From Monosiga brevicollis MX1 (Eukaryota > Opisthokonta > Choanoflagellata > Craspedida > Salpingoecidae): 52,165 nucleotides of DNA. Positions 1,591 through 7,602 of the stretch are shown piece after piece. The notes under the pieces are model-generated. The model worked only from the letters and a program-made list of their open reading frames with translations, did not search any database and was not told the DNA's origin. The stretch is from contig NW_001865056.1 of NCBI RefSeq assembly GCF_000002865.3, forward strand, positions 5,303 through 57,467, written 5' to 3'. Each line of letters begins with the position of its first letter. Within the stretch, counting starts at the first letter, position 1. Both the position numbers and the translations under genes were made by a program.

Positions 1591-2975
1591 ATGGCTCGTG
1601 GACCGAAGAAGCACTTGAAGCGCCTGGCCGCCCCCAAGCACTGGATGCTTGTGCGTAAAACCCTGTCTCCTTGCTAGTTCGGCTACCTGATGGCGGTGCA
1701 GCAGATGTGTGTGCGCCAGTCCAGATTCGCGCGACACATGTGTGGTCTTGGACTGGCGAGGCCATCTGCTACGTCTCTTCCGGTGCCTGCTGCCCTCCCC
1801 ACAGGTTGCCATGGCCGTCATTGCACTCATGTCTTCTCTTGGTGCGCTCTCGGGCTCGTGGTCCCTTCAACCATGTCGATGCGGCTGGTGGCGGTGTGGT
1901 TTGGGATCTTTTAGGACAAGCTGACCGGTCGCTATGCTCCCCGCCCGTCGACTGGTCCTCACAAGCTCCGTGAGTGCCTTCCTCTGGTCATCTTCCTCCG
2001 CAACCGCCTCAAATACGCCCTGACGTACCACGAGGTCAAGATGATCCTGAAGCAGCGCAAGGTATGATGACGAGTTGGTGGCCCGAAATTTTCCGGGCTT
2101 TGGGACGTCGAGCCCTGTACCATGCTATTGCGCTAGAAATGTGTTGTAGCGTGAACACACGTCGATGAATTGTGCTTGCTTTTCTTATCCACGCCCCAGG
2201 ACTCGTCCATGCTCACGTTACTTTGTTGCCTGCTGGTTGGTGATGCTTGATTTAGGTGTACGTTGATGGCAAGGCTCGCACCGACCTTACCTTCCCCACC
2301 GGTCTGATGGATGTCATCTCCATCCCCGACACCAACGAGCACTTCCGTCTCCTGTTCGACACTAAGGGTCGCTACACCGTCCACAAGATCCAGGATGACG
2401 AGGCCTCGGTACGTTGATTCTTTTCAATACGCCCAAAAAAAACGCTGCTCTCGTGGCGCGCAATGCTTGTCCTTTAGCTGCTGGTCATGTGTGTTGATCC
2501 TGACAATCTGGCGCGCATCTGTGTTGTTCGGCTTCTGTAGTTCAAGCTGTGCAAGGTCAAGCAGGCTGCCATTGGCCCCAACGCCGTCCCCTACGTTGTG
2601 ACCCACGATGGCCGCACCATCCGCTACCCTGACCCTCACATCAAGGTCAACGACACCGTCAAGGTTGACCTCGACAGCGGTCGCATCACCGATTTCATCA
2701 AGTTCGACATTGGCGTCCTTGTGCTTTGCACTGGCGGCCGTAACATGGGCCGTGTTGGTACGCTCATGTCGCGTGACAAGATGATGGGTGCCACCGACGT
2801 CGTCCACGTCCGTGACTCCGCTGGTCAGCAGTTCACCACTCTGCTCAGCAACGTCTTTGCTGTCGGCTCTGGCAAGAAGCCTGCCATCTCGCTTCCCCGC
2901 GGCAAGGGTGTCCGTCTCACCATTGCCGAGGAGCGCGATCGCCGCCTCAAGGACAAGGCCAAGGCCGCCGCGTAA
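1591..2975 (+). CDS. RPS4: 40S ribosomal protein eS4 (RPS4)
   Basis: Structural protein of the small cytosolic ribosomal subunit. Four exons, 1591-1650, 1915-2061, 2256-2408 and 2541-2975, are all joined in phase 0 and give 264 residues, against about 263 in animals. The start [20 protein letters not shown] is the typical eS4 N-terminus. It is followed by the S4 RNA-binding region ([19 protein letters not shown]), the central eS4 domain, and a C-terminal KOW-like segment ([15 protein letters not shown]). The protein ends in a basic tail. Introns are 264, 194 and 132 bases, with donors GTGCGT, GTATGA and GTACGT. Identity is secure because every exon aligns with the family in order. It lies head-to-tail with the EH-like gene and the SH2 gene. 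Confidence 0.97.
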
Positions 2976-3664: not shown

Positions 3665-4640
3665 ATGTCTGGTCGCATCTTCCCCTGGTTCCATGGCAAG
3701 CTGAGCCGGGACGAGGTCGAGAGCCGCCTCAAGGCTGTCTGTGCGGGTCGTGACTATGATGATGTCGTCTACCTCGTCCGCGAAAAATCCGATTCCGATC
3801 GGGTAGGGTCCGCCCCTTTTCGCCCGCCCCCTTTGCCTTTGGTGCCTCACAAACCTAACAGCCTCCCCTTTGCTTGACCCTGGACATAGGACCTGGTCCT
3901 TTCCTGGATGAATGTCAAAACCCAGAGTGCAACTCACTTTGTGGTCAAAATGATGGGCGCGGGCAGGTGCGTGCTCCGCCCAGCCACCCCGGGTGCGGTT
4001 TGGTGTGCGTGCTGTGATTTGTCAACCCCCTCCTTTGCTGTCCCACAGCGACAAGATGTACGTTCTGGACGCACAGGTGGAAGGGCGTACCAGCTACTTT
4101 TCCGAGATCCAAGAGCTTTTGGACCACTTTCACGTTCGTTCGTCGCCGCTCGTCCGTCACCATGACTTCTGGCACCATGACTTCTTTTGTCTCTCAACTT
4201 TGAGAGTAAAAACGACCTCGAGTTTAAAAAAAAACCCCTCGATTCAAATAACACCCCCGTCTCACGTCTGACCGTGTCGCCAATCTTTTCGGCGGTACCG
4301 CGCACCCGTGATGCAGAAGGAAGATGGAGGTTTTCCTGGTGGACCTCTCAGCTTTGCCGTGCCTTCGCCAGCCCCTTGCCCCTTGCCCGAGCCCGAGGGC
4401 ATCTCCATCCCTCCGCCGGAAACGGGTGGCCCCGCCCCCGACTTTGGCAATCTTCGTATCAACCCCAACAACTCACGTCGTGCTTCACAGCTCATGCAAG
4501 GTAGCTCCTCCAGCCCTGTGCCTGCCGCCGGTAGCCCCAATGCGCCGCCGCCCATTCCCACATCTCGTCGCCCACACGAAGCCGAAAGCTCCGATGCCCC
4601 CACCCCCGCACCCAAGAAGAAAGGCTGTATTCTGTTATGA
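3665..4640 (+). CDS. SH2-domain protein with C-terminal CAAX box
   Basis: Four exons, 3665-3802, 3890-3966, 4049-4133 and 4317-4640, join in phase and give 207 residues. Residues 8-115 form an SH2 domain. It opens with PWFHGKLSRDEVESRL, has the phosphotyrosine-binding arginine (R39) in YLVREKS, and continues through THFVVKMM, MYVLDAQ and YFSEIQELLDHF. The domain is followed by a proline- and serine-rich linker. The protein ends PKKKGCILL, a CAAX box with leucine in the last position next to three lysines. By known prenyltransferase rules this predicts geranylgeranylation of Cys204 and membrane anchoring. No kinase, SH3 or other catalytic domain is present. It probably acts as a membrane-tethered phosphotyrosine adaptor, which is inference. 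The start at 3665 was chosen because it is the first ATG; an in-frame GTG lies 18 bases upstream. Confidence 0.88.
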
Positions 4641-5472
4641 TGGAAATCCACCACCTGGAGACGAGGACAGGCGGTATTGCCCGAACCGTGCGAGTATCTC
4701 ACCCCCAGCTGGAATGACACCCCGACCCTTCCACGCACGCGCAAAGCGCACACACCGTGGCTTCTTCATGGGTGGATCTTCTCCCTCACGCCCCCACGCC
4801 ACCAAGTGGTATTTACCTCGCGTGCCTTTGTTCATGAGTCGACAAAAATATCCGTTGGCGCACGTTTGAGTTGCGGCAGCTCAACAATCTAGCACTGTAA
4901 TTATGACTCTGATGAGTAAGCTTTTCTACACTAGACTGGCAAGCTCAAGGCCTTGCCTCGGCTTTGTGCCCAACGTGTCAAAGAAGAGCATCGATTTTGG
5001 TGTGATTCTAGCATATTATGACAAGAGTGTGAGCAGAGGCTTGAGACCGCCTAGAGTGCACGCTTTTGTCGGACAAAACAAACAGGAAAGAGGGGGCACG
5101 AAGAGGTGTGTAAAGGTCAGTCAAGCGATGGCATAGCACATCATCAAAAGAAACTGGTGGTCTCGCTGAAACCGTGGCACAGGGCTTGATCCATCGTACT
5201 CGGATCCAATGGTTGACCAGTGCATAGTACAAGAAAGAGGAAACACGGGCCCATTCAACAAATGACCACAGCCAATCCATCTTCCCCCAACCACAGACGC
5301 GAGCCAAAACTCAAAGGGAGGAGAATGCGAGCGAGACGGGTGACGGCTGGTGTCGCGGGGCAGACACAGCTCAAAGACCAAAGCAAACAAGAAGCAAATC
5401 CGAAGCTAAACCCCAAATGCAAGTAGCTGCCTCAATGCTGACCCTTGCGGCAAGCCCTTAAGTGACGGGACT
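4641..5472. other. Intergenic between convergent SH2 and ORP genes
   Basis: Both neighbours end toward this stretch, so it should hold their two 3' untranslated regions. No coding exon, RNA gene or repeat of note was seen. Confidence 0.5.
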
Positions 5473-7602
5473 TCACCACAAGGGGGGCAGGCTCTTGATC
5501 GACTGCTCCTTCTTCTGACGCCAAAAACCACCCTTGTACAGCCACTCGGCGCGCTCAGCCTCGCGAGAGAGTGCGGGAACACCCGAGGGGAGCTGCGCCG
5601 GCTTGGGGGCGGGGACACGACGATACTCGAAGAAACGAGGCTCGTGTTGTTTGCCCTCCGCCTCGAGCTCCTGTCGCCGCACCCGCTGCAGCTCTTCCAC
5701 GCGCAGTTTCTCTGCTCGTACAAGTTTGGATGGAGCGCATACATGAGAAGGAAGTGAAAGATGCGAGCCCAACCAGACATGCACATGCACATGCACTAGA
5801 CGCGGCGAGACAAAGGCAGCAGATGAGGACTCGTACCTTCGGCGGCAGCCTCTTCCTTGGCCTCTTCCCAAAGGCGCTGATCCGGGCGATTGCGCGAGTC
5901 GGTGGCCAGCAGCAAATCGCGTTGTCCATTGCCCTCGGGCGGCAGTTCATTCAGCTCCATGGCAAACTTTGTAAAGCCAAACTCGTGATCAATGGATTCT
6001 GTCGATGCGTGCCAAGTTGGGTGGGCGGTTGAGCAGAGGCGTGGGAATTGTTGGGCAGGCTTTGAAAATACATGAGAATACCTTGTTCAGGCACGGGATT
6101 GGTCCACAACTCCTCCTGGGTGTCATCGCGCACCAGCTGCACGAAAATTCATTTCAGCGCCAAGGGACCATGGTCCGCAAAGAAGAAGCGTAAGATAAAA
6201 ACCAAGCGCACCAACCAAGCGACGGGGACCTGACCACCGCAGCCACCATGATGACCCACCTTTTCGTTCCATTTGCCGGAAAAGGTGGCAAACGGCTTTT
6301 TAGGGTTAGCCACGTCAATGACCGTGCCCTTGACGGCATACTTTTGACTCTTCTTGAAGCGCGAGTACTGGAAGAGCTCGACCTTGCACGTATCACCCGT
6401 GCGACAGTTGACGACACACATCCGGCCGTGGTGGTCGACCCACTTGTTGCCTTGAAAGCAGACCAGGACAACCAAGCGCAGGGGAAGGATGAGGCCACAG
6501 GCCATACCAGACATGGGGGGGGGGGGGGGGGGGATGGAGAGGGCAGCCTGGTGAGGCAGCCCAGCCAGACCAGCCACCCAGCTCGAGTCGAGGAGCCCTG
6601 CATCTGCAAAGCAACAACATACCGGAAACAATGTCTTCCACGTGTGTCACCACTTTTTGCCACTCGTAGGTCTGAACACCGGGCATGATGGGTGGGTGAG
6701 TAAAATAGCAAAGCAAAGTGCGTGGCTGGCAAGGAAATCCCATTCATGGATATGTGCTCAGGGGATGGGGTTCATCAATCTCGGAAGTCGGGAGCGGATC
6801 GGGGCCGTCAGCGACGCACCTCATCGTACGCGGGAAAAGAGACACGAATAAAGCCCTGGGGAGTAACCTTGAGGCTGGAGGGACGGAGAGAGGACTTGAC
6901 ACCCGCCTCTTGATAAAAGGTCCAGAGGGAGGATTCGGCCACGCACACGCTAATGGGCGGGTGATGGCTAACTTGCTCCGCAAAAAAGCGAAAGCCGCGC
7001 TCGGGCCGGACTTCGTCAAAAGTCTCGCCAAGAATGGGATTGAAAGGTTTACGCCCGGAGCGAAAATGAGAGCTGCCGTACGAGGCAACGGCAAAAGCGC
7101 CCACCCACATGAGGCGCTCGCGAGGATCGGCAGCAGCCGCAGCATTGTCGAGGAGGTGGCTGTGCTCAAGCTCTTCGCAGAGGCGCTGCAGAGCGCTGAG
7201 GGGCTCGTTGAAGGTGACGGGCATGGCAATGTGGGAGAGTTTCTTGCCAATGTTCTTCTTCAAAACCCCCCAGAGGGAGTTGCTCTGCAGTGCATGGTCG
7301 TGCTTGACCGAGAGGTGGCTACGGCGCTCGTAATCGTTATCGGCAGCCCAGCGCAGGCTCTCGCCAACCGGCTCGTCCTCGGCCAGATCCAAGGCCCCCG
7401 CTTTGGCCTCGATACCGATTGACTCGTCCAGCTCGTCATCCTGTTCATCGTCCAACACGGCCACCTATCGGATTGACGCGGCCACTTTCAGTCAGTCTGC
7501 AGGCAGGTTGGCCAGTACGCGCAGGCTCAAAGAGCTCAACGGGGGTCGAGGAACGAGGCACCGTACGTCCGTGCTGGCCGCCAACACCTTGCTTTCCGCC
7601 AT
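5473..7602 (-). CDS. Oxysterol-binding protein-related protein (ORP), lipid-transfer domain only
   Basis: Seven exons on the minus strand, 7602-7567, 7464-6820, 6671-6623, 6450-6260, 6136-6082, 5998-5837 and 5711-5473, close in phase and give 458 residues. This is the size of a short ORP. The hallmark EQVSHHPP is present, preceded by KPFNPILGETFDEVRPERGF and followed by the sheet strands of the ORD barrel. ORD proteins carry sterols or phosphatidylserine against PI4P at membrane contact sites. There is no PH domain, ankyrin repeat or obvious FFAT motif in this model. The C-terminus (YKGGFWRQKKEQSIKSLPPLW) is the usual ORP end. The 12-residue first exon, MAESKVLAASTD, is the least certain part. 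A run of 19 G at 6515-6533 lies in an intron. Confidence 0.93.

Follow-up and report, generated by a model that had tools for sequence, protein, structure and literature searches.

A putative membrane-anchored SH2 adaptor with a polybasic CAAX tail in the choanoflagellate Monosiga brevicollis

Introduction

As a rule, it is the phosphotyrosine ligand that recruits SH2 adaptors to membranes. In the case of the adaptor SLAP, a myristoylated N terminus is reported to serve membrane localisation (PMC4905456). For the tyrosine kinases of Monosiga brevicollis, domain combinations that have not been seen in multicellular organisms are reported (PMC3082566).

Here we describe a gene of M. brevicollis that lies within a window of 52,165 nucleotides (the whole stretch of DNA that was analysed, in whose numbering all positions below are given). 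The gene is predicted to encode a protein of 207 residues with an SH2 domain at its N terminus and a lysine-rich CAAX tail at its C terminus. The component parts look ordinary, and it is the combination of SH2 and CAAX that looks unusual. We put the probability that the product is a geranylgeranylated, membrane-anchored SH2 adaptor at roughly three in four.

Gene structure and SH2 domain

Four exons, when spliced in silico, gave 624 nt that are translated into 207 residues and a stop codon, and all three introns have GT-AG boundaries (Table 1). The start codon has an A at position -3. When codon preference was followed along the plus strand in 120-base steps, no stop-free step scored above zero from 2980 to about 3640, upstream of the SH2 start codon, or beyond about 4660. 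Regarding the neighbourhood, the end of a 40S ribosomal protein S4 gene (2541-2975, plus strand; Pfam 40S_S4_C and Ribosomal_S4e) lies ~690 bases upstream of the SH2 gene on the same strand. On the other side, three stretches at 5473-7461 of the minus strand match Oxysterol_BP (Pfam) and are probably parts of one multi-exon oxysterol-binding protein gene, convergent with the SH2 gene.

Table 1 Predicted features of the SH2 gene, with codon scores and splice-site scores
Feature	Position in window	Strand	Description
Exon 1	3665..3802	+	Start codon and first half of SH2 domain (Arg15, Arg39); codon score 0.175
Intron 1	3803..3889	+	GT-AG, 87 bases; donor 4.7 bits, acceptor 2.2 bits
Exon 2	3890..3966	+	Middle of SH2 domain (His62); codon score just -0.06
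Intron 2	3967..4048	+	GT-AG, 82 bases; donor 9.9 bits, acceptor 6.4 bits
Exon 3	4049..4133	+	Later part of SH2 domain, up to LLDHFH; codon score 0.057
Intron 3	4134..4316	+	GT-AG, 183 bases; donor 7.6 bits, acceptor 3.2 bits; codon score of read-through -0.278, noncoding-like
Exon 4	4317..4640	+	Probable end of SH2 fold (GGPLSFAVPSP), proline/serine-rich linker, KKK (residues 200-202), CILL and stop; codon score 0.168
CAAX box C-I-L-L, residues 204-207	4626..4637	+	In the predicted frame; followed by TGA at 4638-4640

Residues 8-99 matched the SH2 family of Pfam (PF00017) over the entire profile (1-77 of 77) with 32.7 bits, well above the cut-off of 21 (E = 8.1e-8), and no other domain scored above the Pfam cut-off in the 207-residue protein, SH3 included. 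Among solved structures, two matches were found at E <= 0.001, both of them weak (RASA1, 1.2e-4; Grb14, 2.1e-4). The arginine of the FLVR motif, which is conserved and binds phosphate, is kept as Arg39 in YLVRE. Arg15 and His62, which occupy positions that presumably also line the phosphotyrosine pocket, were confirmed at these positions, as were Arg39 and, in the tail, Cys204. The loop after Arg39 reads EKSDSD, in which Lys41 and two aspartates depart from the usual SH2 pattern (many SH2 domains carry Ser at the position of Lys41), so that we call the domain a putative phosphotyrosine reader. Given this altered loop and the modest Pfam score, one could imagine a degenerate SH2 domain that does not read phosphotyrosine, in a protein that would then be a membrane-bound carrier of a proline-rich peptide. 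However, Arg39, Arg15, and His62 are all kept, and we consider such degeneration quite unlikely; as to the membrane anchor, it overlaps with the membrane-anchored adaptor that we prefer.

A sequence-only reading of this DNA had proposed an SH2 domain with its binding arginine in YLVRE, a proline-rich linker, and the ending PKKKGCILL. The first of these proposals is borne out by the Pfam match and by Arg39, and both the linker and the ending are present in the joined 207-residue product.

Codon preference and splicing of the last exon

That exons 1-4 form one gene encoding one protein is very probable in our judgement. The alternative is two separate proteins, with the SH2 exons in one and the CAAX exon apart from them: reading would continue through the last intron to a stop codon at 4269-4271, giving 145 residues without a CAAX motif, and the last exon would either be used alternatively or form a small gene of its own. 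Consistent with this alternative, the read-through frame is open until that stop codon, and an ATG at 4311 is in frame with the last exon.

Codon preference was scored with a synonymous-codon measure for which 60 SH2 and Ras stretches from the M. brevicollis genome, some of them overlapping, served as the training set. In leave-one-out scoring, coding pieces had a mean of 0.191 (n = 59, sd 0.126), and random codons had a mean of -0.297 with a 99th percentile of -0.073. For the frame of exon 4 that ends in CILL, the score was 0.180 in the 5' half and 0.155 in the 3' half, while the other five frames ranged from -0.518 to -0.011. The exon is thus coding-like on this measure, whereas the read-through of intron 3 is noncoding-like, which argues against separate proteins; the frame entered from another acceptor, at 4371, scored -0.268. 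The measure was less clear elsewhere in the gene. One reverse frame of exon 2 (0.019) outscored the SH2 frame, and in the 120-base step from 4540 to 4659 the frame ending in CILL scored 0.03 versus 0.10 in another stop-free frame, so that the very end of the gene is undecided by codons alone. An earlier version of the codon test also placed the CILL frame at the top of the six frames of exon 4 (-0.013), with the read-through at -0.276 and a reverse frame above the SH2 frame in exon 2.

Splice sites were scored with a matrix fitted to 22 introns of the genome (24 exon pairs were tried, two of which yielded no candidate). The donor at 4134 is the best-scoring one between 4060 and 4339 and joins 4317 in phase 0, and 8 of the 22 training donors score 7.6 bits or less; these results also speak against separate proteins. 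The acceptor at 4316 is weak, as separate proteins would lead one to expect, and falls below all 22 training acceptors (lowest 3.3 bits). From 4134 to 4370, no other acceptor exceeds 2 bits. The acceptor at 4371 outscores that at 4316, with 4.5 bits, but changes the frame.

The SH2 domain itself scores alike in both forms, which leaves room for the read-through. With a profile built from 17 SH2 domains of the genome and extended beyond the domain end, the spliced form reached 26.9 bits (rank 21 among 94 candidate forms) and the read-through 27.1 bits (rank 17), and with Pfam the read-through (34.2 bits) stood slightly above the spliced form. Since the SH2 profile does not separate the two endings, our case for the last junction is built on splice-site scores and codon preference. 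By eye, however, the spliced ending GGPLSFAVPSP is like the final strand in several of the genome's other SH2 domains. Taken with the codon and donor scores, this makes two separate proteins unlikely. The model with exon 3 joined to exon 4 (4133/4317), as initially drawn from the DNA, is favoured by the sequence tests, its weak points including the acceptor at 4316.

Linker and C-terminal tail

A proline/serine-rich linker of roughly 80-90 residues stands between the SH2 domain and the CAAX tail. Linker residues 154-157 (window 4476-4487) read RRAS and are followed by Q, presumably a sequence type preferred by PKA-type kinases, through which the anchored adaptor could be regulated. Directly before TGA, four codons encode C-I-L-L, and PKKKG precedes them. 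In the predicted reading frame, with the splicing that we infer, the protein ends in a CAAX motif (C-terminal Cys-aliphatic-aliphatic-X). A leucine at the X position usually directs such proteins to GGTase-I.

We scanned for tails of the form C-[AVILMTSC]-[VILM]-X before a stop, counting those whose codon score was positive and whose frame was open over 25 codons or more. Within the window, the only one of 2882 stops that passed was that of the SH2 gene itself. Around 37 other SH2 loci of the genome none of 6901 stops passed, in a partial survey with some overlap and mostly 1.5-kb flanks, by which distant last exons are missed. The genome searched (39.47 Mb, 57 contigs) contained 114 SH2 matches at E <= 0.001, counted per exon, a list that misses split genes such as the CILL-ending SH2 gene. 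Thirty of the 37 loci were drawn from this list, and seven were added separately. Around 30 Ras loci (of 90 Ras matches; some overlap), the scan returned 17 entries. Ten entries, which represent seven different places, are at Ras-family genes and contain a basic run, and Ras-family tails of the genome include QKKKGGCIIL, ITKKRSGCMIL, EKKRGCVLL, and TKKKGGCSLL. Judged from position and strand, each basic CAAX tail would be the last exon of its Ras-family gene. The other seven entries (five distinct places) are chance-like and have no basic run; the tail criterion therefore has false positives, none of which is like PKKKGCILL.

These five places also bear on the possibility that the four exons encode one protein, with CILL as a chance ending that is not prenylated in the cell. 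A CAAX-like tetrapeptide was found before 69 of 18498 stops (all strands and frames of the window and the sampled loci, with overlapping loci and the SH2 gene's own loci counted more than once), a genome comprises thousands of genes, and the present case was selected for being striking. However, both the lysine run and the leucine at X have their match in Ras-family tails of the same genome, and the five chance-like places all lack a basic run. Furthermore, the DNA pattern for K-K-x-C-a-a-L-(TRR) had only three matches in the whole genome, and its backwards control had none. The three were the SH2 gene, a Ras-family locus on contig C56 (KKKCVIL), and a T-rich run in which TGG takes the place of the stop. 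We regard an unprenylated chance ending as very unlikely, and the tail pattern suggests that CILL is more than chance. The geranylgeranylation-type signal beside a polybasic patch, which had been predicted from the letters of this locus, is therefore favoured, being like the Ras-family tails of the same genome.

Prenylation machinery

Prenyltransferase beta-type matches were found at four places in the genome. The first best matches geranylgeranyltransferase-I beta (PDB, E = 2e-34), the second is farnesyltransferase beta-like (E = 1.9e-19), the third looks by eye like Rab GGTase beta, and the fourth is counted as beta-type only. PPTA alpha repeats occur at three places, and both ICMT and an RCE1-like protein match above cut-off. 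Of 14 prokaryotic control genomes, 5 had matches to the ICMT family and 11 to the RCE1-like family, so that a family match alone is no proof of CAAX enzymes. At the level of such matches, a CAAX-processing set composed of GGTase-I beta, farnesyltransferase beta-like, PPTA, ICMT, and RCE1-like proteins is found in the organism's own genome.

In another choanoflagellate, Salpingoeca rosetta, a KRas polybasic-CAAX tag is reported to reach the plasma membrane (PMC12633465), which makes membrane anchoring of the SH2 protein plausible in choanoflagellates. By analogy, the SH2 protein may be held permanently at a membrane.

Proposed mode of action

As a membrane-anchored adaptor, the single gene would give rise to a small protein with an N-terminal SH2 domain, a flexible proline/serine-rich linker, and the polybasic tail KKKG-CILL. 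GGTase-I would attach a geranylgeranyl group to Cys204, an RCE1-type protease would remove ILL, and ICMT would methylate the new C-terminal end. The lysines would favour a negatively charged inner membrane, and the membrane-seated SH2 domain would capture tyrosine-phosphorylated receptors or scaffolds there. Because no further domain was found, the adaptor may act as a competitor for phosphosites or as their protector, or it may serve as a scaffold via the linker.

If this is true, a prenyl-anchored SH2 adaptor would reverse the order of recruitment, and it would represent another use of the phosphotyrosine toolkit by unicellular relatives of animals. More tentatively, as one possibility and with some doubt on our part, the protein may stand for a natural class of SH2-CAAX adaptors, in which choanoflagellates joined a Ras-type lipid anchor to a phosphotyrosine reader that is on the membrane before the signal arrives and might be switched when the RRAS serine is phosphorylated.

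Comparison with known systems

A protein search of the genome revealed no close paralogue: the four matches at E <= 0.001 were the gene's own exons, in a search of short reach that missed other SH2 genes too. At another SH2 locus of the genome (L025), the SH2 domain is followed by FSGFSNPMYAV, which contains FSNPMYA; a cadherin-SH2 gene model of Monosiga brevicollis is reported to include FSNPMYA (PMC3082566). A literature search, mostly outside subscription journals, returned no description of a natural SH2-CAAX protein. A Legionella review names SH2 proteins and CAAX proteins separately, and other papers retrieved deal, by their titles, with Ras-type GTPases, RAS-driven cancer, or lipidation in general. 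An SH2 protein with its own prenyl anchor had been called unusual in the sequence-only reading, which holds as far as the 37 other SH2 loci and this partial literature go. Since choanoflagellates are known for odd domain combinations, the SH2-CAAX protein would be a variant and not a new kind of protein. Compared with the tyrosine-kinase architectures of M. brevicollis, it is a lipidation motif that is joined to SH2 here.

The polybasic CAAX tail is of the same kind as the seven basic tails at Ras-family loci of this genome, and in this respect the protein is like the Ras-superfamily GTPases. Unlike them, it has no GTPase domain, and the module to be anchored is an SH2 domain. SLAP and SLAP2 are likewise small SH2 adaptors that have a lipid anchor and lack a kinase domain, the anchor of the present protein being predicted from sequence. 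Membership in the SLAP family was rejected, as no SH3 precedes the SH2 domain and the protein begins with Met-Ser-Gly and so has no Gly2. SLAP has an SH3 domain and an N-terminal myristate, whereas the M. brevicollis protein has no SH3 by Pfam, and its predicted lipid signal is C-terminal. Most likely, then, the predicted protein works like the myristoylated SLAP but is no SLAP.
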